From Cyclostephanos tholiformis (Eukaryota > Bacillariophyta > Thalassiosirophyceae > Thalassiosirales > Thalassiosiraceae), in NCBI GenBank assembly GCA_036939975.1, contig JALLPB010000208.1, forward strand, positions 1-31,006: a DNA stretch of 31,006 nucleotides, written 5' to 3'. How positions within the stretch are numbered: position 1 is the stretch's first letter; each line of letters opens with the position of its first letter. Positions 2,930-31,006 of the stretch are shown here, piece by piece. The notes beneath the pieces were generated by a model. It saw nothing but the letters and a program-made list of their open reading frames with translations, had not been told where the DNA came from and searched no databases. A program made the translations under genes and the position numbers.

Positions 2930-3298
2930 CTATTCCTCCAATGGTTCATCATCATCATGTTCTGAAGACATTCCAACCTCTCTAGAATGTTGTCCCTGAG
3001 ACATTTCTGGGGCATAATTAACACGTCTACGTCTCCTTGGAGGGTCTTCCTTCTCATTTTCGAAAGAACTCTCATGTTCTTGTTCATATGGCACACCACT
3101 TCCACTTTTATAATCTTTCCTCCGAGGCCTCCCCGTAGGTCTCCTGTTTGATCTGGGTCCATCGTAATCTTCTTCATAGTGAGATTCATCGTAGTCATTT
3201 CCATCTGATATTTTATCCGCTCTTAAGTTGGGAGGCCTCCTCTCTGATCTCTCCCGACTGGAACGCTGCAGTGATTCTTCCAAATCAGAAAAATTTTT
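2930..3298 (-). CDS. In-frame downstream extension of the charged protein, after a TAG codon
   Basis: After the TAG at 3301-3299 the same reading frame stays open for another 122 codons and ends with TAG at 2932-2930. Its composition matches the tail of the upstream protein (Arg, Glu, Asp and Ser rich, with tracts such as PPRRRRRVN and DEPLEE), so it is probably part of the same gene. The TAG sits inside a possible donor, GTATGTAG, starting at 3306. Removing 30 bp (to the AG ending at 3277) or 63 bp (to the AG ending at 3244) would delete the stop and keep the frame. Otherwise the stop is read through, is a polymorphism or sequence error, or really ends the protein. It has no independent ATG start. 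Confidence 0.5.
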   Translation of the reverse strand, partial: KNFSDLEESLQRSSRERSERRPPNLRADKISDGNDYDESHYEEDYDGPRSNRRPTGRPRRKDYKSGSGVPYEQEHESSFENEKEDPPRRRRRVNYAPEMSQGQHSREVGMSSEHDDDEPLEE

Positions 3299-5641: not shown

Positions 5642-5855
5642 GCCCGTGTAATTTTCCTTCATCTGCATGGTAACTGCCGCTCCTGCCCGCGAGTGGAAGA
5701 AAAAAGAGAGGAAATCAAGAAAAGTGTGTTGGACATTGACGGTCTGTCCGTTGTTTTTGACGCCACAAAAAATAAAAAAATCTCCCCGAAAAGAATCGCG
5801 ACCCGAGACCGGATCATAGCCACCAAAACAGGGCAGACGACGCAAGCAAGCCACG
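5642..5855. promoter_or_regulatory. Shared divergent promoter region
   Basis: This 0.2-kb gap separates the start codons of the minus-strand secreted or plastid-type protein and the plus-strand RRP1 gene. Both promoters and both 5' UTRs must fit in it or overlap the neighbouring genes, so it is probably bidirectional. I see no clear TATA box or repeated operator. The role is inferred from position only. Confidence 0.4.
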
Positions 5856-8800: not shown

Positions 8801-8888
8801 TGGAATTGTGTCAAGCGTGAAGAAAGGCCAGAACAAGATGCCATCGTTTAATCAATTATCATCTAGTAAGAAGAGTAAGAAAAAGTGA
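5856..8888 (+). CDS. RRP1: Ribosomal RNA processing protein 1 (Nop52 family)
   Basis: Nop52/RRP1 proteins act in the nucleolus in large-subunit rRNA processing. Exons are 5856-6338, 6457-7005 and 7092-8888, joined by GT-AG introns of 118 and 86 bp, all in phase 0, giving 942 residues. The Nop52 domain runs from about residue 105 to 400: FGRLLGGTDQRTRHAAVKML, then LLKLWK joined across intron 1 to GLWYTLYMADK, then DKFYTAIRYMIHE, and NGLRYHLIDICVDELAKVN in exon 3. An acidic insertion of about 95 residues (194-288) splits the domain. The C-terminal half is disordered, with Lys-rich tandem repeats of 81 residues (nuclear or nucleolar targeting is likely) and KRVSFGK at about 869-875, an RVxF phosphatase-docking motif in a place comparable to metazoan RRP1B. 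The start is the first ATG of exon 1, next to the divergent promoter. Family assignment is strong; exon edges are inferred by eye. Confidence 0.93.
7700..8275 (+). repeat. Coding tandem repeat, 243-bp period (Lys-rich)
   Basis: Within RRP1 exon 3 a unit of about 243 bp (81 residues) occurs twice, anchored by GCATTGGAGA-type words at 7731 and 7974. A shortened third copy carries AEKDASS and DAIAPE again at about 8205-8270. Each full unit holds an ETVG segment, a DFDTT segment, a KKKKRKKKKKAEKDAS cluster and MFVDAI. The copies have diverged only slightly, which suggests recent expansion in the disordered tail. Confidence 0.8.
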
Positions 8889-10259: not shown

Positions 10260-10732
10260 GATGATAAGGCGGGTGCAGTTGGGTGGTTACGGTGATTCTG
10301 CTTTTTATGTGCAGCAAGATAGTTTTTATGATTTTATGTCGAGGATAAGCTATATAACCGGGGGGGGGGTTGTTTATCCGATATGTTGTGGTGAGGGACA
10401 GACGTGAGCGCCAGCCTGCTCTCATCGGAAGAGCTACGGCTCATTCCGTTTGCAAGTAGGCAGACCATGGCAAGGAGAAGGTGCTAGCAGGAAAAGTAGC
10501 CATAGCATTAAGCATAGCAAAGCAATCAACACCCCCCAACACCTAAAAAATAGCTCATAACATTGGCAACACAATGGTGGCAATGGCTCAGCTAATGCAC
10601 ACGGATCACAACGAACATTAATTTTCCAGTATACATGAAGAGGAAGGCAACACTACTGACTACACAATAGAGAGTTCGAGGCCGGGGACCAGATATCTGA
10701 AGCAACCTCATAAGAAGAAGGAAGGCAACAAA
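10260..10732. other. Non-coding stretch containing the 5' end of the DIRS-like element
   Basis: No gene is supported. The composition changes from AT-rich to a CA-rich style by about 10.5 kb, continuous with the retroelement coding region, so the element's left untranslated or terminal repeat probably begins between about 10.38 and 10.5 kb. A G run at about 10361-10370 lies near this change. I could not find a matching repeat at the other end. Confidence 0.4.
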
Positions 10733-13226
10733 ATGGACCGGATTGGCCGCACACTGGGCAATGGTTTACACGGCGAGAATGCCCCAACAGGGGATAACAA
10801 CGATGACCTCAGTGCCCCCAACAACAACCAGGGGAACATGGGGCAGGAAGGAGATGGCAACACTTTCTTTGTTACAAACGACGACAACGACGAGGCATGG
10901 AGCCTAGCGGGGGATGCGATGCAATGCCCAACGCAACACCAGTGCACCAATGTCAACCAGGCAGCACCACCCCCAGCTCTCAACATGAACCAGGGGCGCC
11001 AAGTCCAACCACCAACGCCTGGGGAACAGCAGCAACAGCAAATGGCGGCACCCGAAACCCCACAGGAGTTCTCAGGGCTAGGCCTGGCCTTAAGCTGGAT
11101 GGGGCATACCATGTATGAACCGTGCACCCTCGAAGCTGAACTCTCCCTTCAAGTGGGCATCATGGACGGTAATACCAACGCCCTAGCCAGGTTCAAGGAT
11201 TTTGTGGTAAATTATGGACAGCTATGGGTGTACGCAGCAATGGTGGGGGGTCAAAAGACCATCACCATGATCCACACCCTTGGAACATTCTATTCGTTGA
11301 AGCAAGCCACAAATGCATACCAAGGCAAGGTAGTGGGCTTTATTGGAGACCAACGAGCAACAAAAGAGCCAACCAGGGCAAGCATTGAACGATTGGGAAG
11401 TGTTCCTCACACACTATGCCAACCCGACCAATTGTGGAAGCTTCTGGAAACCAACAGGGGACAAGGTCGAGCTCACGGCACCATTCCTGTTAGCCCTCTC
11501 GAATGCAATAGTCGAAATATTACGGGGCCAAACGGGACCAGCAACACCAGGAGATTTGTGGGAAGCTATCAAGGAGGTAATTACCAATGCAGGAGAGGAC
11601 CATGATCCAGCCCTATGGGATACAATACGGCAATGGTGTTTGTGTGCATCTCAGGCAGGACAAAACAGTAAAAGCCTAATGGTGTTTGAGGTCGACTTGG
11701 TGGTGATCGACGACAATGAGTTCAATAAATGGGTCGACGATAAGCTCGACCAAGCCCTGGGACAACATCCAACAGTCACAAGCACCCCAATGCCAACAGC
11801 AGTGCTGCAGGCACAAACTCAGGTCCCCAATTACCTCCATCTTTCACAGTTATTGGCAACTACAGTGGGGCAGGGAATGATGCACTTTACTCAAGCGGTA
11901 GCACCAGCAGGAGGCGGGCACTTGGGCACAGGTTCCACCCTTGAAGCGGGCAAAGGCTTCAACCGCAACCAAGTAGCGAGGCTCAAGGATGCCTGCGGTG
12001 TCATGCAAGTCAAGGACATCCCTACAATCAGGTACGTCATCCAATCCACTAAGGGGAAGGCATATGACATCTACCGAGACCACATTACAAAGGCAATTAC
12101 ATCATGGTGCCACATGCACAATATGGAGAGAGACAAGTTCATTTTTCTCAAGCAACAGTTCCTTGATGACTTGGTAAAACTGAGATTCAACCCAGGAGGT
12201 CATGTGGCACAATACGAGTCGGCAGACAAGGGTATATCAATGTTAGTATGCCGATCCTTATCGGCTCGGAAGTTGAACACCTACGCGGGTACAAGGAAGC
12301 ATCAGAATTAACGTGGTCAATGAGGCGACTTGATGAGGTCCTAAATGAAAGATCCAATACCACAATGCCAGCCCAAAACTACATGGAGCTCAAACTAAAC
12401 TTATCAACATTTTGTGCTCTCCTTTGGGCTCTATTTGGGGAGCAATGTGACTATTATCAAGAACTGCTTAAACTCCTTCATATCCTGGACACGGAGGAAT
12501 GCTTCACGATCAGATATGCATATACGAAGGAGGTTTGCACAAGAATTACATGGGTGGTCATCAACGACGGGCGGTCTTACTTTGGATGCACGTGCAAATT
12601 ATTGGTTCTCGGTGTCATGCATTGACACCATCACAAATGAGGTACGACACGGGCTACCCGTGATTCAGGCAAACTTTCCGGTACAATGGATCACCCCACC
12701 ACCAGCCAGTGAAATGGCCGCAACGACCAGCAGGCAGCAAAAACCATGCCATCATATGGTGCCCAACGTCCTGCCACCAGCAAACTGGACAACCAGCCCA
12801 CCCACGATGGGTCAGGCCAATACAAACGAGCAAAAATCGAGAACTCCCCCAGAAGACTTCCGCCACACAAAAATCAAAGCCCTCATGGACCCATATTTAG
12901 CCAAGTACAATAACTACATCGATCTCTCTGCGATACTAACGGCAAGCGGCAAAACAATGCGCGACATGCCCACCCTCCCAAAGTATTGTACACCAATGGG
13001 AATGGCATATATCTGCTGGAATAGTGTACTGGGGAAGTGCTTCCACGGAAGATGCTGCAAGTTTATCAAGGGACATGTACGCAAGGGAGAGGTAACCGAG
13101 GAGTTAGCGGAAGCAGTAGCAGACTGCATTGGAAAAGGAGTTCTTTATTATATGGAGACCCATCTTGCAATGGGGGGATCTCCTGAAGGAAAACGAAAGG
13201 CACCCGTCACAACCGACCAAGCCTGA
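10733..13226 (+). pseudogene. Gag-like ORF1 remnant of the DIRS-like element
   Basis: A Gln/Asn/Pro-rich start (MDRIGRTLGNGLHGENAP) leads into a largely alpha-helical-looking region. The frame must change near 11.37 kb (into LNDWEVFLTHYANPTN), near 12.27 kb (into MRRLDEVLNERSN) and near 12.54 kb (into LDARANYWFSVSCID). Close to the end a Cys/His cluster, CWNSVLGKCFHGRCCKFIKGH (residues about 210-230 of the last frame), resembles a nucleic-acid-binding zinc knuckle. The last piece ends with TGA at 13226. Position before RT supports a Gag role; I do not recognise the core sequence by family. Confidence 0.6.
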
Positions 13227-13426
13227 CAATCAATAACACGGGGGGGGGAACTAGTAGCACAACTATTTTAGGATCATTTACATCAGATACATCAGAACAA
13301 GGGCCTCGCCCGAGCAAACGCCAGGTAGTAGCGATCAACACCAACAGTAAAGAAAACATACAACTTCAGCAGCGAGAACTAGCATTAGGAAAAAGCAAGA
13401 GCACAAGCGTCTGCCGCATTGCCCAA

Positions 13427-15000
13427 ATGGCACAACCACCCATCACAATCGAGGACGAACACTGCTTGGCTGAGCCCACTGAGGATAGGGATTCCAGTGA
13501 ATTCCTCGCAAAACCACTGCTTGACGGTGGTCAAGGTAAGAGCAACAACAACACTTCACTTCCGCTACCGCGGGGGTATATCAGTCATGGAACTCAGGGA
13601 AGGATATCGAAAAATTGCGCCTACAAAACAAATGGATGCGACATACACTGCAGGAACAGCAGCAGCAAAAATCAATGTGGACAACCCACATGGGCACGAC
13701 AACGCTCTTGATCTCATTGCCACTCCCAGACAGGTGGCATGGCAACATGTGCCCGTCGGGTATTGCAACATTACACCCAGCAGGGAAGCTGCTCAGTGAG
13801 TGGGTTCAAATGGGATGCCCAACATGCACAGGCCGGAATTCGACAAAGGAGGAGCTAAAGGAGGCAGTGAAATGCGGCCCCCACTGGTCCGCACTCTCAC
13901 CCAAAACATTGGAGCACTTTGCTCAGGAAGTCAAGGAGAAGGTAGCAGTTGGCCATTGCAGGATCGTTTCATGGGATTCAATCCATCGTCGCGATCCCAC
14001 ACAAATTGCACGCCTTCCGGTCCATCCTCGATGTATCGTTCAGCTCAGTCAATGACACAACCATCAAGATGGCACCTAAAGGGGCATTAGATCAGTTAGG
14101 TCATAGCCTTAGACAGATCATCCATGCATTCGTGGAAGCCCCCGACGAGGAGGATGTGAAGATATTCATGGCGAAATGGGATGTAAAGGACGGTTTCTGG
14201 CGAATGTGCTGTGATGAGGGTGAAGAGCACAATTTTGAGTATGTCCTCCAATAAGCTCCGGGCAAACCAATAAAAATTGTCGTCCCTACATCATTACAAA
14301 TGGGGTGGGTCAAATCCCCCCCGTATTTCTGTGCGGCATTAGAAACGGCACACGACATTGCAATGGACTACACCAACGGAAGTGGGGACCATCCCTGTCC
14401 ACAAGTTCACACAGTACACACGAAGAGACAAGGGAGGAAACATTATTTCATGAGCCTGGTCATCCCAACCACAAAAGAGCACTTAGACCAGGTCGCTTCG
14501 GCAATTATGATGGTAATTCATGACGTTTTCCCAGGAAACATCTTAGACAGCGATGACCCGATATCCTTGAAAAAACTCCATAAGGGTGAAGGTACCTACA
14601 GCACATTGAAAACACTGCTGGGATTTGATTTTGACGGAAAACAAAAAACTCTTTGGTTAGAGGAGGAGAAACAAGCAAAGCTACTCACTACACTGAAGGG
14701 ATGGATTCGATCCGCTGCCCACAAACAAGGCTTAGGATTCAAAGAGTTCGAGTCCATCATGGCAAAGTTACGACATGCTTTCATCGCCCTCCAAGGGGGG
14801 AAGGGACTGCTCTCGCCATCATTGCTGAACAGCTCCTCCGAGTACTAACACTGCATATGAATGCACAGCGTTGTTGCCCGCTGACAACTTTGCACATCGC
14901 CGGGGACCAAAATTCCATGACTGATATACCCTCACGATCATTTGGTAGTGAAGCAAAATGGAATTTAAAAACAGAATCTGAATTACTGCCAACCCACCTC
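13427..15000 (+). pseudogene. Reverse transcriptase and RNase H remnant of the DIRS-like element
   Basis: RT motifs are clear: AIPHKLHAFRSILDVSFS, then GALDQLGHSLRQIIHAF, MAKWDVKDGFWRM with a palm aspartate, and MGWVKSPPYFCAALETA. A frame change near 13.97 kb precedes them, and a TAA at 14252 interrupts between the palm motif and the PPYFC motif. Where a Y-x-D-D motif would be expected, before FMSLVIPTTKEHL, I read KHYFMS instead, so the catalytic Asp pair seems lost. After KLRHAFIALQGG a deletion and frame change near 14.82 kb lead straight into the RNase H tail (LTTLHIAGDQNSMTDIPSRS). The first part of RNase H is missing. It cannot encode an active polymerase as it stands. Confidence 0.78.
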
Positions 15001-15002
15001 AA

Positions 15003-16169
15003 AAATAGTTACACATATGACTTCTGTCTTGCGAACAAAGCCTTTCAGTCTGGACGACTGGAGGCGACTACCCACAGTAGGCAGAAATATTGGAACTATT
15101 GGGAGTCCTATACGAGGCCTTTGAGAGTGGACCCTTACCTTCAGGACAAAGATTTCACCACACGAATGCGTGTCCTCTCCGGCCACCTTGCACGAGTACG
15201 CACAGGTTACTATGGTCAAGGAAAACAAGTAAAAAAATTCACAGTCTCAAGCGCGCTTACGGCAGTTGGGCAGTCGATCACACTGGCCTGCAATGACAAC
15301 CCCACAAAGATAAAGGGCTCAGACAAACTCCTCCCTTGACTACAGGTGATGTTAGATTGCTACAGGAAGGAGGACCCAGCTACGATCAAGAAGCTTCCAG
15401 TCCAATCTGATGTACCGGAATTGCTTGTTACAACGGCCTGCAGCCTACAATGGCCTACAATGGCATAGGGACGGAGAAGGAGAAAGCAGCGGCCAACCTT
15501 ACACTAATAGCCTTCTATTATCTCCTACGAGTGGGGGAATATACTGTCAAGGGGTCACGGAACTCAACGAAGCAAACCGTACAGTTCAAATATGAGGATA
15601 TAACGTTTTTCTGCAAAAACTCAAAAAATCAATTGAAATGCCTCCCACCCAATGCTTCGGACGATCTCATCGCATCAACGGATGGAGCTACCCTAAAACT
15701 GGACAACCAGAAGAATAGGTGGAAAGGGGTGTGTGTTTACCATGAAGCCAATGGGGACAGCATGCACTGCCCGGTACAAGCACTTGGCCGATGATACCTT
15801 CATCTTCGAAAACAGGGAGTGGAGCAAAGAACTTTCCTCTCGGCATACTTCACTGAACCAATGCAGCACTCAGACATTACTAACGAGGACATTACAGTGG
15901 CCCTCAAGTTGGCTGCAACAATTCTTGAATACCCCACTGTTAAGGGTAAACCAATCGACCGAATCGATACGCACTCTTTGCGAAGTGGGGGAGCCAATGT
16001 ACTATCATTGGCGGGTTTCTCTGACACGGAAATTTGGAAAATGGGCCGATGGCGCAGCACCACTTTCAAAGATTACATCTGGGAGGAGCTGGCATGTTTC
16101 TCCGAGGGGATGTCAACCAAAATAAAACAAAAATTCCTCTATATGAATGTGGCAGGAAACGCATTCTAG
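15003..16169 (+). pseudogene. Tyrosine recombinase remnant of the DIRS-like element
   Basis: The N-terminal core-binding part contains YWNYWESYTRPLRVDPY and SGHLARVRTGYYG, then a TGA at 15337-15339. The catalytic domain follows in shifted frames: FYYLLRVGEYT with the first catalytic Arg, a basic beta-strand region, HCPVQALGR, and, after another frame change near 15.80 kb, THSLRSGGANVLSLAGF (the H-x-x-R box) and WKMGRWRSTTFKDYIWEEL with the Trp and nucleophile Tyr. All four catalytic-site landmarks of tyrosine recombinases are still readable. A short duplication of GCCTACAATG near 15.45 kb coincides with a frame change. The final TAG is at 16167-16169. Confidence 0.8.
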
Positions 16170-17912
16170 ACATTACTGCCGAGCTAGTGGTACCTGAATA
16201 AAACACTTGCCATAAACCATTTCCACCATCAAGCACGCATACGTCACAGCTCCTCTGAAATGACGCACACAACACAAGTGCTGAACACAAAGAATAACAC
16301 AAGGCAAACGTACACATATGGCATACACCATTGGGTAAAGGGGGCTTTTGGTTTCAAAGTCATGTACAAAGAGTAGGATCTCAATTATCGTTTTAGAGGT
16401 TGGCATCGGTTTGTTGGGAAGGCACGTGGAGATGACGCCCGTCTGATACATAGGTCCGTCACCACTTTGCCTCTGTGGTGGGCATCTTTCAAAATTTCCC
16501 AGGCGTGATCGTCCCGATCGATGGGCGACTTTTCCCCTGGGGAGTAGGGCTTGCATGGAAAGCTACTTAACCCTGCTCAGTTTTTGGCACCACACAAACC
16601 GTCTCTTGTCTCACACGTTTCACGTATCCACCTTCTGCAGCCATGCCTCAAGTCTCAATGAACCTAGGTCCAGTCGCAGACTTGATCTATTATGTCAATA
16701 AAACATAAATTAGGGTTAAATTAGGGTTAGAAAGACATATTTTTATGTCAAAACAGCATAGGTATGTCAATGTTTTTATGTTTTTGGGAATGCTCCACTA
16801 ACCTGCATCACGTGCGTGATTAGTATGTTTCAACATAGGAATTCGTTCGACCCAAATGAGTATAATTTCCTCGCGCACCACAAAATGTGTTGTAACCCTA
16901 CACACTGATGATAGATAGAGAGAGTCGGAGAAGATGAGAGCGAACAGGCCTCATTGATCGAACAGACGTTGGGTAGCTATCGTAGGTAGGGTACGATACC
17001 ATACGATCGAGCACCACGTTCTTCACCAATCATCTCTCTTCAATACTACTTCACTCTCTTGTCAAACAGATCTCAAAGTATCGAAGCACCAACCGTCGGT
17101 TGGAGCCACAAGCCCGAGCCGGAGAGATTTTTGTGATTGCGGATAATATAGGTAAGGACACTGGTTTTCTCTGGCAATCGTTTCGGGGCGTTTCCTATTG
17201 GGGGGTAGGGGCACTGTCGATATTTCATGTTTGCAAGGACGTTTCCCCCTTAACCATGGATGGGGTGAATAAAATCAACCGCTCCCCAACACCACTGGAA
17301 ATTATTATTATACTTACCAGGGTGATGCTGGGATGATGATGAAGGGTATCAGAGCTGGTTTGGTGGCTACGAGAGTAGCAGGCTGGGACTTTCGGCGACG
17401 GCAAGTGGTGTGACGTGTCACCTGAAAGCTCAAATATATTGGTCGTTCCACCTGAGGGATTCCAGAGAGATGCTGATTTTTTGATCAATTGCTTTCTGCT
17501 GTCTTGTTGGAGACCGTGACGCCGATTTGGTCGATGTCATTTGGCCGTGCCTTCGACCCCCTTCTTCGGGCGGGCCACAACTGTATTCAAGCTTAAACCA
17601 TTTCCCTCGCGCTGTGTCTGACTCAAACATTCATCTCCGAAATGAACCTACACAGTGGACAATGTTGATTGACTTTTCCTCGAATCGCGGTAAGAAAGTT
17701 TCTGATCATCCTCTCCCAGTTCTTTAGCCGCTTGGCTCCAAGAGAAGGACAAGGATAAGACAAAAGCACTCTCTATAGGCTTCGCCCAGAAGAATCCGAT
17801 CGAAGGCCAGTCAATGAATTTATATTGAAGTGCCCAACAAGGCTCCTAGGCCATTTGCGGCCCTTTCCCCTTTCCCAAGGAATTACCTTACTGCTGTAAG
17901 AGTCCGAACAAG
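16170..17912. other. Non-coding region: retroelement 3' flank and upstream region of the Nudix gene
   Basis: No gene is supported. The first part (to about 16.6 kb) keeps the retroelement's style and probably includes its 3' end. A transposon-end-like sequence lies at 16781-16797 (listed separately). From about 17.0 kb the DNA resembles host 5' flank. A GGTAAGGA sequence near 17.15 kb could be a donor of a 5' UTR intron, but I cannot pair it confidently with an acceptor. The small open frames here (60-90 codons) carry no domain. Confidence 0.45.
16691..16797 (-). repeat. Harbinger-like terminal inverted repeat end with subterminal repeats
   Basis: Read on the minus strand from 16797, the sequence is TGGAGCATTCCCAAAA, which matches the left end of the Harbinger element at 19721 (TGGAGCGTTCCCAAAA) at 15 of 16 positions. 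Inside it lie three copies of TATGTCAA (16691, 16744, 16763) and two TTAGGGTTA words (about 16711-16729). It looks like the right end of a related, possibly non-autonomous element whose left end I could not find upstream. Confidence 0.55.
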
Positions 17913-19427
17913 ATGAGCGGCGCGAAAACGATGTCGTATCACGAATCAAACAATGCAGGCCCCATGAAAGATACGGTGTCGATGCATGCATCTAGAATCT
18001 CCCAGAAGAACCTTTCCCCGGTGCCCACACACAAAACTTTCTATGGGACTCTTATCCCCGCCCCGGAGCGGCTAACTCCAACAGGGCAGGGTAGGATCAA
18101 GGCCCCTCCTGTCTGTGTGGCCCCAGCATTGATGAAGCAGGCATCGGGTACACTTGACCTCAATATATTGTGTTTTTCGCTGAAGGAAGCGGAATTTTGT
18201 GCAGAGAGGGCGTTCGTTTTAGATGGCAACCATGTCAGTAACCATGTCGAGGAAATGCCGCTTAATATTGAAAAGTGCCTTGGATTTTCGACAAAGAGTT
18301 CCGTCGAGGTGACGTCAGGGACGGAAACTCGTTTGTCGGCTACATCTGAAGGAATAGAAGCCAACGCATTGATGTCTTCGATTTCTTCAATAGTCCCCTT
18401 ATCGTCCTGCGTCCAGTTTCCCAAAGACGGCGAATCTATTGCTTTTACCTCCTTGGCTGACCCCTCGCTAGAGGCGGTGAGTGCGATTTCGTCGAGGATC
18501 TCAGAGAATGACGACCATTTAAAGAGTGGGGGGGATGCCACCACCACCGTCAAACAAGGATGTTTCGTGACAGGAAACAATTCGGTTTCAACAGAGACAG
18601 CCATAAGTTCACAGAAATCTCCAAGGGCGGTGTCCCTGACCACTTACACCAGCAATCTCAACGGTAACACTTCCCGCCAAGGCCGTTCGCTCCAACGTTG
18701 GCTTTTGCACTCTCCCACAGGCGATCTTGTGCGAGAGGTTGCTGGAACCATACCCATTACACGAGATGGCCGTATCGTACTTATCAGCGCGTCCCGCAAG
18801 AAGGAGTGGATTTTGCCCAAGGGCGGATGGGATGCTGACGAGACTAAGGAGGAGTGTGCCATGAGGGAAACATACGAGGAGGGCGGGTTAGTTGGCCAAT
18901 TGGGGGGATGCTTGGAACCAATTGACTACCAGACAGCGAAGTCAAAGAAACGTGTATCGAAAGAGTTGGAGACCATCGAGGATTCGGTGATGAAATTCAA
19001 GTCGTGCGTTGAAAGTGAGGATTCTCGCCCCCCACTCCCCAAGCGTTTCAAGAATGAATTGTCGACCTCGCCAACCGGACCTGAACTGATATTGTCATCA
19101 GGCAAGAGAATCGTCTCGGGTAGTTCTACCTGTAGTGGTGGTGGAAGTGATGTCAATTGCGTGACAGCAACGGCGCCCGCAGTGGTCCCAGCTCCATCGT
19201 TTGACCCCTCCGACTACTCCTACATCCGCCTATTCCTCTTCCCACTCTATGTCTCGTCAGTCAAGTCCGATTGGCCTGAGCAGGGTCGCCTGCGCAAGCT
19301 AGTCCACATTGATGAAGCCATAAGAATTATGAATGAAGAAAACAGGCCTTACTTCCGGATGGGACTAGAATTAGTAAAAGAGCGCGGGTTGCACTTGTTG
19401 ATGAAATCGGAAGAGTTGGTTAAGTGA
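17913..19427 (+). CDS. Nudix hydrolase, diphosphoinositol polyphosphate phosphohydrolase-like
   Basis: Enzymes of this group cleave diphosphates from diphosphoinositol polyphosphates or diadenosine polyphosphates. The 504-residue single-exon protein has a complete Nudix box at about residues 302-324: GGWDADETKEECAMRETYEE followed by GGL, fitting G-x5-E-x7-REUxEExGU. It is preceded by REVAGTIPITRDGRIVLISA and KEWILPKG, the style of yeast Ddp1 and animal DIPPs. Two features are unusual: an N-terminal extension of about 250 Ser/Thr-rich residues, and a disordered insertion of about 75 residues between the Nudix helix and the last strands (YSYIRLFLFPLYV, then WPEQGRLRKLVHIDEAI). The start is the first ATG in frame; an internal ATG seven codons later is also possible. 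Class is clear; exact substrate is inferred. Confidence 0.88.
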   Translation: MSGAKTMSYHESNNAGPMKDTVSMHASRISQKNLSPVPTHKTFYGTLIPAPERLTPTGQGRIKAPPVCVAPALMKQASGTLDLNILCFSLKEAEFCAERAFVLDGNHVSNHVEEMPLNIEKCLGFSTKSSVEVTSGTETRLSATSEGIEANALMSSISSIVPLSSCVQFPKDGESIAFTSLADPSLEAVSAISSRISENDDHLKSGGDATTTVKQGCFVTGNNSVSTETAISSQKSPRAVSLTTYTSNLNGNTSRQGRSLQRWLLHSPTGDLVREVAGTIPITRDGRIVLISASRKKEWILPKGGWDADETKEECAMRETYEEGGLVGQLGGCLEPIDYQTAKSKKRVSKELETIEDSVMKFKSCVESEDSRPPLPKRFKNELSTSPTGPELILSSGKRIVSGSSTCSGGGSDVNCVTATAPAVVPAPSFDPSDYSYIRLFLFPLYVSSVKSDWPEQGRLRKLVHIDEAIRIMNEENRPYFRMGLELVKERGLHLLMKSEELVK

Positions 19428-19756: not shown

Positions 19757-19930
19757 CACAAACGCTAAATTTATGTGTTCGCGCGCTCTTGCGGTCCCAA
19801 AATAGAAATTTTTATTTTTTGCACAAACGGACTCGTGACTACCCACGTTACACGTGGCCTAGATGAGACTCCTACTTCTCCATTTTGTGAGAGTGCCGAC
19901 CTCGCTTTCCCTACCGCCTCATCCTTTGCG

Positions 19931-21133
19931 ATGAGTCTCTTGGATTCCGCCCTCCTTCTTTGCCTTGCCCGTCATCACGCAAGAAAGAAGAGGGGCCCCT
20001 ACAAACACTCCCGCCTCCGAAAGGACTTCTTCAAGTCTCTTTCGATTGAGGAGCGGCGACGACGCTTTCGCAAAGTTCCCCGGAGTGCGCTTATTCCGCT
20101 GGCACATTCTCCATGGCGAAGATTGCTTGCATCGCGAAATGATCAAGCGTACATCACCATGATGGGCTTCGACTGCGAGTCCTTCGACAGGATTCTCGAT
20201 AAGTTTGGTCCGATGTTTTCAGGGCACACACCTTTTGACGAGTCGGGGATGATTGTCGAATTTAATTACACCCGTGGGCGAAAGAGAAAAGTTCAGCCGG
20301 CGGATTGCCTCGGGCTTGTGTTAGTTTGGACGCGCACCAGGGGCTCGCTTAATGTTTTACAACTTGTTTTTGGACTGACCTATTCGAACCTGTCTGTTTA
20401 TCTGAGATTCGGCATCAGGTTAATGGTGGAGACGTTCAAAAATGATCCGCTGGCTAGAATTGCTATCCCCTCCAGCGACGAAATTGAAACATTCAAGGCG
20501 GCATTTGCGGAGCGACACCCCCTTTTGACCGATTGCTGGGCGACAATGGATGGGCTAAAATTATATCTCCAGTCGTCCGGAAATTCGGATATTCAGGAGA
20601 GATTCTATAACGGGTGGACGCATGACCACTACGTGACTTCTGTGTTCTGCTTTTGCCCCGACGGAACGATTCCAATTGCATTTTTCAACGTCCCCGGATG
20701 TGTTCACGACAGTCAGGTCGCAGAGTTTGGTAAGATTTATGACAAATTGGAAAATGTATATCGTACGACCGGCGGGATGTGCTGCGTTGACTCGGCGTTC
20801 GGGAGTGTGAACAGGAAATATTTATATAAATCGTGCCAGGACCAATTGGGTTCGAACGCACCAACACGCCGGCTGAGGAAACTTGACCTTCAAAAAAAAA
20901 GACAGGCAACATCGGCGCGGCAGACGGCGGAGTGGGGAATGCTCACGATGCAGGCTTCTTTCCCGAGGGTGAAGGATAGATTTGTGTACGAAGAGAGAGG
21001 AGAGCGGAGGATTGTGTTAAAAATGTTTGTCCTTTTGTACAACATGCGGGCTAGAATGGTAGGAATTAATCAAATTCGCAATACATACATGCCACATCTT
21101 GAACGTGACGCGAACGAAGACATAAGATTTTAA
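19931..21133 (+). CDS. PIF/Harbinger DDE transposase
   Basis: This 400-residue protein cuts and pastes the surrounding element. I start it at the first in-frame ATG (19931); the frame is open further upstream but without another ATG. The DDE nuclease core is plain: WATMDGLKL with D207, GCVHDSQV with D260, CCVDSAFG with D287, and TAEWGMLTMQASFPRVKDRF with E334. By comparison with the IS5/Harbinger superfamily the catalytic triad is probably D207, D287 and E334, with the HD motif conserved beside it. The N-terminal 120 residues are basic and helical (ARKKRGPYKHSRLRKDF, SLSIEERRRRFRKV), suiting DNA binding. No frameshift or stop is present. The Myb-like partner follows on the opposite strand, 124 bp away. 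Confidence 0.9.
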   Translation: MSLLDSALLLCLARHHARKKRGPYKHSRLRKDFFKSLSIEERRRRFRKVPRSALIPLAHSPWRRLLASRNDQAYITMMGFDCESFDRILDKFGPMFSGHTPFDESGMIVEFNYTRGRKRKVQPADCLGLVLVWTRTRGSLNVLQLVFGLTYSNLSVYLRFGIRLMVETFKNDPLARIAIPSSDEIETFKAAFAERHPLLTDCWATMDGLKLYLQSSGNSDIQERFYNGWTHDHYVTSVFCFCPDGTIPIAFFNVPGCVHDSQVAEFGKIYDKLENVYRTTGGMCCVDSAFGSVNRKYLYKSCQDQLGSNAPTRRLRKLDLQKKRQATSARQTAEWGMLTMQASFPRVKDRFVYEERGERRIVLKMFVLLYNMRARMVGINQIRNTYMPHLERDANEDIRF

Positions 21134-21257: not shown

Positions 21258-21765
21258 CTAAGTTTTGCTGGGGCTAGGCGGTGGGTTGCTGTTGTCGCCT
21301 CCATTTTTGTTCAGCATCGACATGAACATGGCGTTCATCATCTGACTTTGCGCCTGCATCATTTGCCTTTGCGCTCGCGCATCCTCGCGTGCAATCGCCA
21401 TCTCCTCCCGACGAAGATCGTACTCTCTCTCCCTCTGTTCGTATTCACTTCTATACTGCCGCTCCCTCTGCTCATTATCCTGGCGGTGTTGCATCATCAT
21501 CATGGTCATCATCCGACCAAAAGAGAACCCGTCGTCATCAGCGTCATCGCTGTCAGATTTCGACTTGGACTTACGAGGGATACGCAATGGCTTTGCGAAT
21601 CCCTTGCCCTTCTTCGCTGCCCCCCCCCCACCCCCCTTTGATTCACTGGACCTCTTCTTGCCACTGCAGCTACCTTCGGTCGATGCCGCTGTGATATCAG
21701 AGATATCGAGAAGTGGGCGGTCGCCATCACGCTCGCGCATCATTTCATCAATGTAGTCATATTTT

Positions 21766-21802
<37 letters not shown>

Positions 21803-22211
21803 CATCGTCATCGTCATCTTCTTCATCATCGTCCCCGCCAACATCTGCGTCCTCGTCGTCTGAGATGTCTTTATCATCCTCATCGTCATCGTCTTCTCTC
21901 TCTTTGTTCGATTCGCCATCAGAGCCATCCGTAGCCTCTACAATTTTCCTGTAAATGCGTTTGGCAGAACGAATGTGAGGCGGACAATTCGGATCACCTG
22001 TTTTCATTTTTTTCTTAACCAGAGTCTGAAATTTGCGCCGAATTGACTCAGCAGTCCTATTCTTTTGGGGATAGCGCGTGTTGTGCCTGTCCCAAACCCG
22101 CTCCCAATCGGGATTACCAATTGGAACGATGTCATCGATGGCCTCAAGCATGCTCTCCAGCTCTTGGACGGTAAATTTAAACCCCCTCCTTCCTTGCTTG
22201 GCGGCCATCAT
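21258..22211 (-). CDS. Myb/trihelix-like accessory protein of the Harbinger element
   Basis: A 317-residue protein starting at ATG 22211 (a second ATG follows at once). Residues about 7-90 form a Myb/SANT or trihelix-like DNA-binding domain: FKFTVQELESMLEAID, NPDWERVWDRHN, RYPQKNRTAESIRRKFQTL, then CPPHIRSAKRIYRKI. A long acidic Asp/Glu stretch and a 10-Gly run follow, then a basic, Ser-rich nuclear-localisation-like segment. A charged coiled coil rich in Arg, Glu, Gln and Met (about 225-300) probably mediates dimer or transposase contacts. In characterised PIF/Harbinger systems the Myb-like protein recruits the transposase to the ends; that role is inferred here from location and architecture. 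It matches the broken copy at 9.2-10.3 kb in domain order. Confidence 0.87.
21771..21800 (-). repeat. GCC trinucleotide run (10 units), poly-Gly
   Basis: Ten GCC units read as ten Gly codons on the minus strand inside the Myb-like gene, next to a GTC/CAT-rich acidic stretch. It is likely to vary in length between strains. Confidence 0.9.
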
Positions 22212-22274
22212 CAATCAGACTAGAAGTAGAAGCACGACGGAGTAGAAGACGAAGGGCAGCGGAGTAGGTTGTGT

Positions 22275-23082: not shown

Positions 23083-23726
23083 ATGTCGCCACGAGCGGAA
23101 CATGAAAAGTTCCTCGACCTCTCCTCGCCGTCCTTCTCTTCGAGTGGCAGTGGTAATACTAATGACATGAACGACGACTACGACAAGGACGACGACGTTC
23201 CCCTACTCGCGGCCTGTCGACATCTCCTCCAGCCAAACGGGTGCATAGTCGGCAAGGACGTCGCGCGGGCGATCCTCCCCTCGTTCCCCACGTTCTGCTC
23301 GGCCATACCCAAAACGACTATTACCACCACGTCCGATGGGGGACGAGGGATGGGAATGGAAGGAAAGGGCGGTGGTGTTGGGATGGCACTGGCATCGATC
23401 GACGGCCGGGCGCCACTGACGCACGATCGCGTGTACGACTTCTGCGTGAATTACTACGGCCCGGCATTGCATTCCCTCGGATTCGGACGTGGCGATCGCA
23501 TAGCCCTCGTATTGCCGAACGGACCGGAATTGGCCCTCGCGATATTCGCCACGTCTCACTGGGCCAGTTGTGTCCCCCTGTCCGCGAACGGTGCGCTTAG
23601 CGAGCTCGAATCGGACCTGAGACGATGCGGCGCGAATCTCGTCGTCGGACCTTACAGCGGACTCATGACGTCGTACCCCACGACGTCGACGTCGACGTCT
23701 CATGACGTCGTCCATCGTCTTCACGT

Positions 23727-23764
<38 letters not shown>

Positions 23765-26700
23765 TCGACGGGGTCGTTCCCGACTGGTCGGCATTCCGAA
23801 CGATCGAAGAATGCGCCAATAGGGTCGGGATACCGTTCGTCGGACTCGTGCCAAGCCCTCGCGAGGCGGGGATATTCGCATTGTGCGAATCGCGATCGTC
23901 CTCCTTCCGTCCGTTGCGATACGACGACGTCGCGTTCGCGATGACCGAATCGTCGACCGTGCCGCCCGCGCTCGCGAGGGAGGAGGACGAGGGGGTCACG
24001 ATCGACGCCCCTCCCCCGGGGGCCGGGATCGATCGCGACGTCGTCCTGACCGCCTCGGTCGCGTCGTCCATCGAGCCGAACGGCCACGACGACGAGGTGC
24101 TCGTATTGTTCACGTCGGGTACCACCGGCGGGAAGAAGCTCGTGCCGCACGTAATGGGGGACATGCTAACGGCATCGGCGATCATAGCATTGAGTTGGGA
24201 CCTATCCCCATATGACGTCAATTGCAACCTAATGCCGTTGTTTCACGTGGGAGGGATCGTGCGTCAGGTATTCAGCCCGATGTTCTCGGGGGGGTGCGTC
24301 ATCTGCTGTCCGTCGTTCGATACGAGCGTCTTCTGGTCGTTGTTGGCGAATGGGGCATTCACCTGGTACTACGCGGCTCCCACGATGCATCAGCTGATAT
24401 TGCAAACGGGCAAGATGGACGGTATCATCGACGACGACGGAAATTGTCCCATGAAGTTGAGAATGATAGCGAATGCCGCCGGGGGCTTACTCCCGAGTCT
24501 CGCGAGGGAGATGTTGCACGTCTTCGACGCCACCGTGAGTTGGACTTTGTTTGTTTTTATAATGATATTTTGCCCACAACGAGAGAATGGATCGAGATAC
24601 CCAATAATATGCGATGCGATATCGCTCGCCCCAACGCGCCGCCAATTCCCTTGTTTCACTTCGCACTGCGCCCTCCCTTATTCTCCGATCGTACGTATCA
24701 GGTACTTCCATCGTATGGGATGACGGAATGCATGCCAATCACGTCGCCTCCCTCAACGTATCGTCTCGATAAGGCGGGCACGTCGGGCGTGGCCGTCGGA
24801 CCCGAGCTCGCCATCCTAGACGTATCGACGTTGCGTCACATGTCCCCGGGGGAGGAGGGGCCGATATGCGTGCGCGGAGAACCCTGCTTTCGCGGTTATG
24901 GCGAGGTATCGAACGGGGGCGGCGAGGATGCGGTTCCCGTTGGGGAAACGTTCCTGGAGGGCGGGTGGTTCAATACCGGCGATTTGGGCTACATCGACGG
25001 GGATGGCTACCTCTACATCACGGGACGTTCGAAGGAGGTCATCAACCGGGGGGGCGAGATCATAAGTCCCATGGAGGTCGAGGAGGCCGTCGTGGGCCAT
25101 CCGGACGTATGCGCATGCGCCGCCTTCAGCGCGCCACACGACGTCCTGCAGGAGGTCGTCGGCATCGTCGTCGTTATGGAGTCCGGCAGGCCACGTCTCG
25201 ACCTGCCGTCCCTGCACGTGCATCTGGGAGAGCTTCTCGCGTCCCCCAAGTGGCCCCAGTGCCTCGTCTTCATGGATTCTCTGCCGAAGAGTCACACCAA
25301 CAAGCTCCTACGTGTGAAACTGGGAGCCCGTCTACAACTGCCGGAGCTCTCGGACGACATGAACGCGACGGAGCGCACGTTCGAGGCGGTGTGTCCGCCA
25401 CAAGGGACCCCTCTCGATGTTCCAATCCAAGCGCGTCGAGTCGCCTTGGATGCTGGCGACATCGAACGCCAATTGTCCTCCCTACTGGCGAAGAGCTTTG
25501 ATCAGCGTCTCGTCGTCGTTCCCCATCCTAAGCGTAGGAGTGCCTTCGTTTGCTACCTTGTAAATATCGAACGAATCACTGCGATCGAGACAGCTATTCA
25601 ATGCATGGCCCGTTACTCTGTACCGTCACACTTCGTGGAGACCGATAAAATATCGCTCGCGTCGAATGTCCTGCCAACGCCTAACATGACGGACGCCGTC
25701 GCGACCATCCTGCAGGAGCAAGATTCATCGGGTCCGGATGATCTGGTCGTACGGAGCATGAAGAATCTCTTCACCGACCTGCTTGACTTGGATTACCTCC
25801 CTGGGCCCGATGCGAATTTCTTTCACTTAGGAGGGAGCTCGATGTTGGCCTCTCAGCTGGCGAGCAAGATCCGGAAGCTCTTCGCGATAGCCTGCAACGG
25901 CTCCGAGGTCTTTCAGCACGCAAGCTCGAACGAAATGGCCAAGCTCATTCGTGCTCGTCAGGGTAAAGACGCTTCCTCTGGGACAGGAACAACCATGAGC
26001 ACGAGTGTATCTGATGGATGTTTCAGTGACAGCAGCAAGAGCGTCTCGGACCATGATGCGCCGTTCAAAGCTGAGCATCTTGCTCCGGAATGCTCATACG
26101 GGGGAGCTCTGTTCCAACTTGTACCAATGTTTATTGTTTTTCCTATTTGGCAAGTTTCACGGTATTTACTGTTTTTCTACATTTTGCTTTGGAGTATTAA
26201 CAATGTTCCCGGAGACAGAGATCTCGGAAGGTTCGTCGCAGCGTACATTGCCTTTCACGCTTTCTGGATCACAATCACTCCGTTGATATTTGTGGCGATG
26301 AAGTGGATTATAATTGGACGATACAAAGCCGGTCGATACCCCATCTGGGGATCGTATTACTTACGATGGTGGTTCGTAGATGTAATGCGCAAGCTCTTCC
26401 TTCGCGGTATCTGGGGCTCGAATGATGTACTTTTGAATGCATACTACCGCATGCTCGGCGCGAAGATCGGAAAAGGTGCCCACATTTCCCTGGAAGCTGA
26501 TGTAGCAGAGTTCGATCTCGTCGAAGTAGGAGAAGGAGCCGCGGTCGAACTTTCCACATTGCGAGGGTTCGGCGTTGACAACGGGGCCATGATATTGGGA
26601 CCAGTCAAGGTTGGGGAGTACGGAAGCTTAGGCATAAAGTCCATCGTCGCTCCTTACACATCAATTCCAAACAACAGCCATCTAGGACCTGTGACGTCAA

Positions 26701-28631
26701 CTTACGATGTAAAAGCTCTTGACGCAACCAATTCTCGCGTGAATCGAAAATGCTTTTCTGGGCCACCTTTGTGGATGCAGATATGCATTATCGGGCCAGT
26801 TACATTCCTCGTAAATGCCTTCGCGCAGATCCCGCCGTTGCTTGTGTTATTTAAGATGCTCGAATACAAGGGCAAGCACGACGCTTACTTTTCAACTCTG
26901 AGTGATTTAATAGAGTGGTTGATGGACCCTCATCGAATCCAATACTACATAGGGATCCGTGTCGCGCGTGCTCTCTTCTCTCCTTTCTTCTATATGGCTG
27001 CGGCACTACTTGTGAAGAAGATTGGCATTGGCAGGTTCAAAGCCGGCCCCCGAGACACGTCGAATCACTGGCAGCTGCTTCGCCACTCGCTGTCGGCGAC
27101 TCTCTTCTCCCGCAAGAAGATCCAGAATGTCACAGATCTTATCGGCCGCCACTACGAGCTTGTCTCTGTTTTGTATCGGCTCCTTGGAGCGAAAGTCGGA
27201 AAGCGTGGTAAGTGGGGTTTCCCTTCTGCGTCTCATTGACGTTGAAGACACGGAACTCACTAACTTACATGTTTTGTGTGACGAAGTCTTTTGGCCCGGT
27301 CAGCAACCTATTTTTTCTGGCGAATTTGATTTACTGGAGATTGGAGATGATGTGGTTTTTGGATCCAGGTCAGCTATTTTCTTCATAACGAGGGACTCAT
27401 GTGAGAAGGTGATTCTGTGCGCTGGGTCCAACGTTGCAGATAACTGCGTGGTGCTCCCAGGCGCCATTATTGGTAAGAATGCTGTTCTTGGTTCGAATTC
27501 AGTTTGTCCACCAGGAAGGTATCTTCCGGAACGAAGCGTTTGGCTGGGCTCCAAGGGATGCGAGCCCACCTGTCTTGAGAAGGGCGTTGACCTAGAAATT
27601 AGTGGCCCGATCATGGCATCCGAGGTGCAAGAGGATAACTTGCCCTTGGTTGGAGATGCATCGACATTGCGTCCTTTCGGAAAAGCTTTTTACCTCAAGA
27701 AGGCGTCGTACTCTGTCTGGAATCTCAAGTCCATACTTGCCTTTACTGCCCTTGTCAAGACCTTCATTGCTACCTTCCACGCGTTCCCCCTCCTGCTGGG
27801 ACTGCACAGTGCGGCTGTTGTCCTGTACGGTTGGTCATTCGAGGAACGCGACTACAAGGGAAGGAACTACCCTTTCTTCGTCCTATATGTTATGATCTTG
27901 GTAATGTTTCTTTTCACCAACCTGCTCCGTGTTGTCTTGTGGGTAATCATCGAGCTGACTGCCAAGTGGACTCTGATGGGCAAGCGACTCGAGGGTCGAT
28001 ATAACTACGACACAAGCTCCTATGCGCAGAGGTGGGAGCTTTACCAAACAATCGCCCACATGCGGAAGTTTTCTCGCATGAATTTCATGGATTTCTTCTC
28101 GGGCACGCCATATATGTCAGCATTCTTTCGTTGGAATGGAGGCAATATTGGTAGGGATTGCTGTTTATATCCATCAGGTTCGTACTTTATTGTGTGGATG
28201 CTCCTCGGAGATCAATCATTTGTCCCACGTCCATCCCCTCACTCGATGCGAAATAATATAATATTCCAGGCGCGGACCCGTTCATGACCGAACCCGATCT
28301 CGTATACATGGGCGATCGCTGTGTCGTGGATTGTGCATCGATTGTTTGTCACTTGAACACCCAGGGTAACTTTGAACTGGCCAAGATTGTTATTGGGAAT
28401 GATTGCACCCTTCGAACCGGATCCCGGGTCCAGCAGGGCGTGCATATGGAGGAGGGTTCCCAACTCTTGGAAAAGAGTTTGGCGATGACGGGCGAAATAA
28501 TTGAGGCGTACAGTGTTTGGCAGGGAGGGCCCGCCTCTTGGTGGTTCCAATATGACAAGGAGAAGGAAGATGAGGTATTCGTCGAGTCTAGTAAGTTGTT
28601 GCAGGGTAGGGCTTTATACTACCATGTCTGA
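23083..28631 (+). CDS. Adenylation-carrier-membrane hexapeptide megaenzyme (poly-lysine-synthase-like NRPS-type)
   Basis: Exons 23083-24534, 24702-27207, 27287-28177 and 28270-28631 (GT-AG introns of 167, 79 and 92 bp) join in frame to about 1736 residues. Residues about 30-700 are an ANL adenylation domain: FTSGTTGGKK, PSYGMTECMP, NTGDLGYIDGDGYLYITGRS and the SHTNKLLRV catalytic-Lys loop. A carrier domain follows with FFHLGGSSMLASQL, the Ser near 864 being the phosphopantetheine site. Then come three modules of membrane helices plus left-handed beta-helix repeats, each marked by a related start: YYRMLGAKIGKGAHI, LYRLLGAKVGKRVFW, FFRWNGGNIGRDCC. This order matches bacterial epsilon-poly-L-lysine synthase and NRPS-like terminal domains. 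The A domain resembles acyl/oxalyl-CoA-ligase types (PLFHVGGI, AAPTMHQLIL), so the substrate may be a carboxylic acid, not an amino acid. There is no condensation or thioesterase domain. Architecture is clear; product unknown. Confidence 0.88.
23731..23763 (+). repeat. TCG trinucleotide run (11 units), poly-Ser
   Basis: Eleven TCG codons encode poly-Ser in the adenylation domain of the megaenzyme, in a surface insertion before the A3 loop. Similar TCG/GTC runs occur in the SGNH gene downstream. Confidence 0.9.
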
Positions 28632-28789: not shown

Positions 28790-30397
28790 TCATCGTACGA
28801 CTATGTCGGCTGCGGCCTCCCCATTCTGATAGTTGATGAAGGAACTCGGTACATGCCCCTCGATCATGACGCGCTCGGCCACCCGATACAAATATCTCGC
28901 CGTCTCCTGATCCGGGAATTGATTCGACGGCTCCCAGGAATGTTGCATCACGCGTGCCCTATCCCAAAGCGACGATACGTCCTCCCTCAGGAGTATGCCC
29001 TCGTCGGGCATATTCCCGAATAGGGTATAATACACTATGCACCCCTGCAGGAACGAGCCGGACGGACTGGCGTGTATATTGTCGCAGTGAAAGAGCGTCG
29101 TCCACAGTTCGTAATCCTCCTCGTACACGACGAGGAATGCGAGTCCCACCGGCGCGATGCGCGGCGCCTGATGCGACGGCAATCGCGATCCGAGCAGATC
29201 GACGTAGGCACGATACCCCACGAGCGTGAGGCTCGTGAAATTGGATATGTCGTCGAGTCCCGCCATTATCGACGTCACGACGTCGTCGTCGTCGTCGTCG
29301 TCGTCAACGTGCGAATTTTCCGACGTCGTCGCGCGGTACTCGTCCCCCCCCCCACCCCCGCATGCGTTCCTGTAAGTGTACGCGTGCGTCCAAAGGAATA
29401 CCGGTATCGATCCCGTCCGCAACAATAACGGCAGGTAGAACCCCTCCAACGTTATCAACGAGAGTTCGCGCGTCGACTTCCTCGCCGGATAACGCGTATT
29501 GTCGTTGATGACGACGTAATCCCATCCCCCCCCCACCCCTCCGTCGCCGCCGCCGGTAATGCCGAAGTGCGCGTTCGCATATTCCCGGTAGTGGACGTCC
29601 ACCCGACAGGGATTGGTATTGTTCGACACGACGTCCGACGACGACGACGACGACGACGACGACGTGTCGTAATGATAATATTCCTCCCCCGAAAGCAACT
29701 GTCGGACGGTACACGCGCCGTAATCGTACAGGGTATGACCGTCGTCGTCATTCCCCAATATGGCATTCGTCGTCATGAATTGTGGATGCATGGCATTGCC
29801 GTCCGATGCGAGGCTACCGATCGATGCGCCGCCGTGCAGGCACGAGTTCTGTACGATATTGCCGTTACACATATCCTCGAAGAAGCGGGGGAAGTCGTTG
29901 AAGTAGAACATGGAATTGCCGACGAATGCCACCGATACGATCGACGACGACGACGACGAGATACGATGTCCGCGTCCGCCGGCCGTCGTCTTGATCGCGA
30001 TCGTCACGACGAGGTACGACCCGAACGCGAGAAGCGCCGCGCACGTCGTCGCGATGGCCACGACGTCGAGCGCGCGACGACGATCGTGCCACGACCACCA
30101 CCACCACCGACGATACGACGACGAATACGACGAATACGATCGCTCGTGCCGATGATCGTGGAATGTACCGCCCCCGTCGTCGATGACGTGCGATGCGTCA
30201 TTCTCGTCCGAGGAGGGCGTCGCGCCGTCCGAAGATGACGACGACGACGTCATGATCGTCGTCGTCGTCTTCGCGACCTCCCCATCCCCCTTCCCCGGAG
30301 GATGGACCTTCCTCCACCCCGCGGCGGGCCTGGATGGCGACATCCTGACGTAGTCGTCGGACGACGATGCGTGCGGATTGTACGGCATATCCACCAT
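28790..30397 (-). CDS. Type II membrane protein with SGNH-hydrolase-like domain
   Basis: A 535-residue single-exon protein, started at the ATG at 30397 (MVDMPYNPHASSS). The N-terminal 100 residues are Ser/Asp-rich and disordered. A single membrane segment at about 107-133 (VVAIATTCAALLAFGSYLVV) after a cluster of Arg suggests a signal anchor with the enzyme outside or in the secretory lumen. SGNH landmarks follow: VAFVGNSMFYFND (Gly-Asn-Ser in place of the usual G-D-S block I) near 157, GGASIGSLA with a Gly, VVINDNTRYPAR near 295 with the block III Asn, and CDNIHASPSGSFL near 440 with the Asp-x-x-His pair. The family includes esterases and O-acetyl-modifying enzymes; substrate unknown. Poly-Ser, Gly and Asp runs interrupt the fold. 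It is convergent with the megaenzyme gene. Confidence 0.75.
   Translation of the reverse strand: MVDMPYNPHASSSDDYVRMSPSRPAAGWRKVHPPGKGDGEVAKTTTTIMTSSSSSSDGATPSSDENDASHVIDDGGGTFHDHRHERSYSSYSSSYRRWWWWSWHDRRRALDVVAIATTCAALLAFGSYLVVTIAIKTTAGGRGHRISSSSSSIVSVAFVGNSMFYFNDFPRFFEDMCNGNIVQNSCLHGGASIGSLASDGNAMHPQFMTTNAILGNDDDGHTLYDYGACTVRQLLSGEEYYHYDTSSSSSSSSSDVVSNNTNPCRVDVHYREYANAHFGITGGGDGGVGGGWDYVVINDNTRYPARKSTRELSLITLEGFYLPLLLRTGSIPVFLWTHAYTYRNACGGGGGDEYRATTSENSHVDDDDDDDDVVTSIMAGLDDISNFTSLTLVGYRAYVDLLGSRLPSHQAPRIAPVGLAFLVVYEEDYELWTTLFHCDNIHASPSGSFLQGCIVYYTLFGNMPDEGILLREDVSSLWDRARVMQHSWEPSNQFPDQETARYLYRVAERVMIEGHVPSSFINYQNGEAAADIVVR
29282..29305 (-). repeat. GTC trinucleotide run (8 units), poly-Asp
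   Basis: Eight GTC units on the plus strand read as an Asp run on the minus strand within the SGNH-like gene, in a loop between block III and the catalytic Asp-His pair. Confidence 0.85.
29636..29664 (-). repeat. GAC trinucleotide run, poly-Ser
   Basis: About nine GAC/CGA-phase units encode a nine-Ser run on the minus strand in the SGNH-like gene, between blocks I and III. Confidence 0.85.
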
Positions 30398-31006
30398 GAA
30401 TTTTGTCGATGCGTCGCGGCGTGCGCGCGCAGGCAAGGCGGGGGGGGGGGGGACCGTCGAGGAGTTTTTGTGTGTGTGTGTGTGTGGATGTGTGTGTGGA
30501 TGTGATATTATATGCGGAGCGTTGGGATGTTGAAGGGGGGGGAGGAGGAGGAGCGTCCGCCGCGGCCCTGCTATGACTCTCTTTTTAGGGGGAGAACTGT
30601 ATTAATTCATATTCCGGGCAAAATGATGGGGATGTCCGCTGCGGAACCTCTTCGTTAATTGATGTAGTCAGTCGTACTGGGTAGTCGAAGTCGAAGAGAG
30701 GGGAGGGGATGAGACGCTCTTTTATGCGACGGTCGTGCCGCGCCTAACTGAGAGAGGAGGCTCTCGAAGAACCGTCCCACGAGTAATATTTTTTGATGGT
30801 GCACCATCGTGCGCCGCGCCTTCCTTGTTGTGTGAGAGTGTTTGTGTGTTTTCTCGATTTCGTTCTCCAAAAAAAATGGAATTTTTTTTTCTCTCTCTCT
30901 AATAGTAGAGTGGTAGCGATGATCGCTACTGTTAAGATAGTCTACCGTTAAAGCCGGGGCATAAGGAACCCCGGGGCATAAGGGACACTTCTCATTTTCC
31001 TAGATA
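30398..31006. other. 5' flank of the SGNH-like gene; microsatellites
   Basis: No gene is supported. A 13-G run is at 30440-30452, and a GT-type run at about 30470-30487 is followed by diverged TGTGGA units to about 30502. The rest contains C/T-rich tracts. The window ends in an inverted repeat and a 17-bp tandem repeat (listed separately). Confidence 0.5.
30913..30987. repeat. Short inverted repeat followed by a 17-bp tandem duplication
   Basis: GTAGCGAT and its reverse complement ATCGCTAC flank a single base at 30913-30929. From 30954 the unit CCGGGGCATAAGGAACC is repeated at once as CCGGGGCATAAGGGACA (14 of 17 identical). It could be the edge of a repeat element that continues outside the window. 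Confidence 0.6.

Follow-up and report, generated by a model that had tools for sequence, protein, structure and literature searches.

A diatom gene predicted to join an acyl-CoA-synthetase-type adenylation domain to a Pls/PosA-like membrane domain

A 31,006-nucleotide stretch of the Cyclostephanos tholiformis genome (contig JALLPB010000208.1; hereafter, the window) contains, at positions 23083-28631 of the forward strand, a gene that a first-pass annotation had described as a eukaryotic, intron-containing poly-lysine-synthase-like megaenzyme. This raises the question of whether a diatom encodes a polymer synthetase of the kind represented by Pls (epsilon-poly-L-lysine synthetase) and PosA, or an enzyme with a different substrate and product. 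Our analysis indicates that the protein is a domain-swapped Pls-type synthetase, in which an adenylation (A) domain of the acyl-CoA-synthetase type and a carrier domain precede a Pls/PosA membrane domain. As to its activity, we lean, a little beyond an even balance, towards an enzyme whose carrier is likely charged with a non-alpha-amino carboxylic acid, to be passed to an acceptor through the beta-helix trimer.

A search for relatives across 5.8 billion proteins scored 7989 candidates and gave 1196 hits. The best 120 of these 1196, mostly without an organism name, were listed and are referred to below as the listed relatives (51 to 87% identity; 27 of them shorter than 1500 residues); the best hit was 80% identical, and the next, from Stephanodiscus triporus, 76%. 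The gene itself was assembled from four exons, whose joining yields a single open frame of 1736 codons, free of internal stops and closed by a stop codon. Judged by frame and splice sites, exon 1 (23083-24534) encodes an N-terminal extension followed by the greater part of the AMP-binding core of the A domain, and exon 2 (24702-27207), for which Pfam matches were also used, encodes the remainder of the A domain, AMP-binding_C, a linker, the carrier domain, membrane module C1 and the start of module C2. Exon 3 (27287-28177) continues with the C2 beta-helix, transmembrane helices TM5-TM6 and the start of module C3, and exon 4 (28270-28631) with the C3 beta-helix and the stop, their modules being assigned from the frame and a structural model of the orthologue P0001. 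The three introns, inferred from the sequence, are all GT-AG: intron 1 (24535-24701, 167 bp; donor GTGAGT, acceptor CAG), intron 2 (27208-27286, 79 bp; GTAAGT, AAG) and intron 3 (28178-28269, 92 bp; GTTCGT, CAG).

Of the 120 listed relatives, 107 carried the motif adjacent to splice join 1, 112 that adjacent to join 2 and 87 that adjacent to join 3. The listed proteins with 1500 or more residues number 93, and 87 of them contained the exact strings SGTTG, GGSS and HLNT together. Of the remaining six, five read GGGS where the others have GGSS, the exact SGTTG being absent as well from one of these five; HLNT was missing from the sixth. Two transcriptome-derived relatives, P0083 and P0115, are fusions that run uninterrupted across all three intron positions, the former stopping just short of the C-terminus. 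The full-length diatom relatives, including these two, support the fusion, and the claim of one spliced gene was confirmed: 23083-28631 corresponds, with predicted splicing, to a single gene whose fusion is conserved in diatoms.

Four Pfam families matched the 1736-residue protein, all above their gathering levels. AMP-binding (PF00501; residues 110-550, 23410-24899) spans intron 1 and is followed by AMP-binding_C (PF13193; residues 609-685, 25074-25304), the carrier domain (PF00550; residues 838-900, 25761-25949) and one hexapeptide stretch (PF00132; residues 1362-1393). Downstream of the carrier domain, hydrophobic peaks occur in three pairs, and three modules with approximate limits could be delineated: C1 (26097-26744; TM1-TM2 and the first left-handed beta-helix, LbH), C2 (26757-27663; TM3-TM4 and the second beta-helix, split by intron 2) and C3 (27706-28550; TM5-TM6 and the third beta-helix, split by intron 3). 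The order is thus A domain, carrier domain and three membrane-flanked LbH modules, with membrane insertion predicted, as in Pls/PosA and as the first-pass annotation had proposed from the letters alone; Pfam, the family profile TIGR02353, the hydrophobic peaks and the P0001 model agree on it. Condensation and thioesterase domains, which it had noted as missing from the bacterial enzyme, were likewise not found among Pfam matches at E 0.1. A search of the organism's own genome with PF01648 and PF00668 returned no match. The linker between Lys685 and the carrier domain (about residues 604-735 of P0001) contains an extra element with a predicted beta-alpha-beta-beta-alpha-beta order; profile comparison of this P0001 linker with the A-sub domain gave a probability of 4.9% and an E-value of 0.008, and a second, degenerate A-sub could not be shown.

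The membrane half ties the protein to the bacterial enzymes. The protein matched TIGR02353 ('Pls/PosA family non-ribosomal peptide synthetase', NCBIfam) in three stretches with an E-value of 4.3e-66, but the 223.7 bits fell below the curated cut-off of 423.1 bits, and three other relatives scored 213.4-230.5. In tblastn searches with residues 945-1736, 48 of 72,556 plasmid records matched, 8 of them with 80% or more of the query covered, with E-values down to 1e-28, and the top rows were either annotated Pls/PosA synthetases or unannotated. A genome scan yielded 24 relative-encoding loci among 68 pattern matches, with E-values (relative to the candidate stretches) down to 5e-43, and 88 pattern matches in viral contigs included no relatives. 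Alignment with six plasmid genes covered the entire membrane half. On these sequence comparisons, the C-terminal half is truly homologous to bacterial Pls/PosA along its length.

Two loci are recorded here in their own right. The strongest match of the genome scan (L011, E 5e-43) is an archaeal Pls-type gene in a metagenome-assembled genome of Candidatus Nitrosotalea. At a second locus, in Skermanella rosea (L010), ectB, encoding diaminobutyrate aminotransferase (1-862), lies immediately before a Pls/PosA gene (994-5100), an adjacency that suggests a poly-diaminobutyrate synthetase.

Structure prediction led to the same family. AlphaFold2, run on 780 residues of P0001 with a 71-row alignment, gave a confident model (pLDDT 90.1, pTM 0.90) in which three pairs of helices each precede short helices and a beta-helix, a layout that matches the arrangement predicted and described for PosA (PMC10522769). 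When the 71-row alignment was cut into modules and the profiles of C1, C2 and C3 were compared pairwise, the beta-helix parts matched with probabilities of 97.3, 97.7 and 96.0%, and the modules including the helices with 98.3, 98.5 and 96.7%. Because the module profiles match one another in all six comparisons, the three modules are homologous, and the triplication that had been proposed from a shared start motif holds. No solved Pls membrane-domain structure occurred among the sequence matches or the Foldseek/VIA rows shown, an absence that is uninformative. By structure comparison of the model, C3 adopts a left-handed beta-helix, and its His1644 (codon 28350-28352) aligns with LacA His115 and with the histidine of the Pls QTHL motif; this histidine is kept in 71 of 71 rows and in 30 of 30 bacterial relatives examined. 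In LbH acyltransferases, the catalytic histidine sits in a protruding loop, according to PMC3046976.

The A domain points elsewhere. Its best-matching solved family, by both sequence and fold, is that of the oxalyl-CoA synthetases (AAE3/Pcs60), with malonyl-CoA synthetase also matching by sequence. Within the superfamily it thus groups with the acyl-CoA synthetases, the oxalate/fatty-acid ligase type, and not with the amino-acid-adenylation class. In blastp comparisons with the 30 bacterial relatives (E-values for that small set), the A domain reached 2e-9 at best, against 5e-44 for the C-terminal half. In PosA, Asp217 and Glu221 are conserved for positively charged substrates (PMC10522769), and the corresponding FDxxxE motif was present in 26 of the 30 bacterial loci, the other four not covering the site. 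The diatom protein has FHVGGIVRQ (residues 387-395, 24241-24267) at this place, with Arg394 (codon 24262-24264) aligned with Glu221 across a two-residue gap. The stretch reads FHVGGIxRQ or YHVGGIxRQ in 94 of the listed relatives and FHIGGIxRQ in 7, whereas 19 are partial and lack it; [FY]H[VI]GGIxRQ, with arginine at the glutamate position, is therefore found in all 101 that cover the site. Because the Asp/Glu pocket motif is replaced in this way, an alpha-amino acid substrate appears unlikely, and the conserved Arg394 makes it a fair guess that the substrate is acidic and not basic. An amino-acid-type A domain with equivalents of Asp217 and Glu221 was looked for and not found, for which reason we do not place the protein among the cationic polymer synthetases. 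The label 'poly-lysine-synthase-like' is borne out for the C-terminal half but is not supported for the substrate.

Oxalate was considered as a substrate and not adopted: the residues that we take to bind oxalate in AAE3 (the second His of FHVHG, the Ser of CSAS and the His of TEATH, their positions being assumed) all differ here. The accessible parts of PMC8117764, PMC9935904 and PMC8099913 offered no residue information. Catalytic competence was assessed in 49 rows: P0001 itself and 48 drawn from the remaining 119 listed relatives. In 49 of 49 rows, the single residue tested in each of A3, A5, A7, A8 and A10 (the last being Lys685, at 25302-25304) was invariant, as was the putative phosphopantetheine serine Ser864 (25839-25841), identified by alignment to LGGHSL; because of this invariance, both half-reactions look intact.

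Taken together, a route can be proposed in which the A domain would form the acyl-adenylate of a carboxylic acid, and the acyl group would be taken over as a thioester by the phosphopantetheine of Ser864. His1644 of C3, which occupies the position of the LacA/Maa histidine, may then activate an amine or hydroxyl to attack this thioester, and an amide or ester product would be released at a membrane with no condensation or thioesterase domain involved. A single or short transfer seems somewhat likelier than a long polymer.

The most serious competitor, possible but distinctly less probable, is the membrane polymerisation of a bifunctional acid that lacks an alpha-amino group (hydroxy, beta/gamma-amino or similar), giving a polyester or polyamide. 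The Pls-type C-terminal trimer, as in the homopolymer synthetases of PMC10522769, and the non-amino-acid type of the A domain are consistent with it, but nothing here demonstrates iteration and the Pls C3 motif following the histidine is altered. Tentatively, and with slightly less confidence again, one may imagine a condensation-domain-free membrane polymer synthetase of diatoms whose exchanged activating domain supplies a non-alpha-amino acid for a non-cationic, possibly acidic polyamide or polyester, a biopolymer class that would be new to any organism.

We regard as improbable a true cationic homopoly-amino-acid synthetase, making polylysine, polyornithine or the polymer of a close diamino acid, with an A domain that has merely diverged. 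The shared domain order and the homologous C-terminal half would fit, but the A domain falls outside the amino-acid-adenylation class, lacks the Asp217 and Glu221 equivalents, and resembles the bacterial relatives far less than the C-terminal half does by the blastp values above. Polylysine and polyornithine were rejected as lead products on the class of the A domain and its pocket motif. Equally little credence is given to an ordinary CoA ligase whose beta-helix modules are structural, on the pattern of complex I and its gamma-carbonic-anhydrase-like subunits. Compared with the PDB by sequence, the membrane half does find its best match in gamma-carbonic anhydrases, over a short stretch of C2 (E 1e-7), but the carrier serine and the C3 histidine are conserved in relatives and bacteria, and the whole membrane half matches Pls/PosA. 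A gene-model artefact, that is, two genes or a pseudogene, is hardly credible, since the 1736 codons are free of internal stops, the SGTTG, GGSS and HLNT strings recur in the long listed proteins as described, and both transcriptome-derived relatives are fusions.

Relatives occur in several diatom genera. The named listed relatives comprise S. triporus (Thalassiosirales), Seminavis robusta (Naviculales), Mayamaea pseudoterrestris (Sellaphorales), Nitzschia inconspicua and a Nitzschia transcriptome (Bacillariales), and 'Bacillariaceae sp.', so that the gene occurs in Thalassiosirales and three Bacillariophyceae orders; a Psemu1 record is presumably from Pseudo-nitzschia multiseries. A second copy was not found in the 25 Mb draft genome (1566 contigs). 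On contig C87, TIGR02353 matched weakly (24191-24406; E 2.7e-7, profile positions 144-215, 72 positions); this match, not returned by the protein search, probably reflects one more hexapeptide protein. Separately, contig C639 carries a second A-plus-carrier frame of 1284 residues with an amino-acid-type A domain, for which TIGR01733 was the best match but below its cut-off; this may perhaps be the conserved diatom 'Other(A)' protein.

In the literature searched, which mostly did not extend to subscription papers, we found no Pls-type enzyme described in a diatom. The eukaryotic nature of the gene alone is not new: a Pls-type enzyme has been published from a fungus (PMC7179176), and homologues have been reported in many bacteria, fungi, Metazoa, Alveolata and Amoebozoa (PMC10522769), where the words 'diatom', 'stramenopile' and 'algae' are not found in the main text. 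Those Pls-type enzymes that PMC10522769 characterises use diamino acids, with one homologue showing modest arginine activity. A survey of algal genomes reported an A-ACP-reductase-KR protein in three diatoms and three more 'Other(A)' proteins in Phaeodactylum (PMC7073580); the latter may include the diatom Pls-type family, unrecognised. T. oceanica 'NRPS1', upregulated in low iron (PMC3491386), was considered as a candidate for this gene and not adopted; it might just as well correspond to the 'Other(A)' protein of A-ACP-reductase-KR layout (PMC7073580).

The surroundings of the gene were also annotated. Just upstream, a DDE_Tnp_4 transposase-like frame (19769-21130, forward) lies beside a DUF6818 frame (21261-22214, reverse), a pair that resembles a Harbinger-type element. 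Convergent with the synthetase gene is a 603-residue open frame (28793-30601, reverse) with no Pfam match at E 0.01, which by eye is perhaps a membrane-anchored SGNH-like protein. A run of overlapping broken frames (10622-15339, forward), three of which were scanned without a Pfam match, is possibly a decayed mobile element, and 5820-8885 and 17850-19424 (both forward) hold ordinary genes, for a Nop52 nucleolar protein split in two and for a NUDIX protein.

If our preferred reading of a carrier-loaded non-alpha-amino acid is true, the Pls membrane engine can be re-equipped with another class of activating domain, and, if the trimer works with a non-amino acid, the three-module trimer would be a general carrier-dependent acyltransferase; for diatoms, an undescribed product would be indicated for a gene of this distribution. 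Compared with Pls/PosA, the protein shares the domain order, the lack of condensation and thioesterase domains, the homologous C-terminal half and the C3 histidine, whereas it differs in the class of its A domain, in FHVGGIxRQ for FDxxxE, in lacking the C3 ED..MK, in scoring under the family cut-off, in exceeding most bacterial frames compared with its 1736 residues, and in having introns. Epls, the epsilon-PL (epsilon-poly-L-lysine) synthetase of Epichloe festucae, is likewise eukaryotic and of the same architecture, but its lysine pocket is conserved, according to PMC7179176, whereas the Asp and Glu of this motif are absent from the diatom protein. The INRGGE motif is common to AAE3/Pcs60 and the diatom A domain, which differs from these enzymes and from MatB (malonyl-CoA synthetase) in being fused to a carrier and a membrane domain. 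With the hexapeptide O-acetyltransferases LacA/Maa, C3 shares the left-handed beta-helix and the aligned histidine. LacA/Maa are CoA-dependent soluble homotrimers, whereas the diatom protein carries three modules in a single membrane chain beside a carrier domain.

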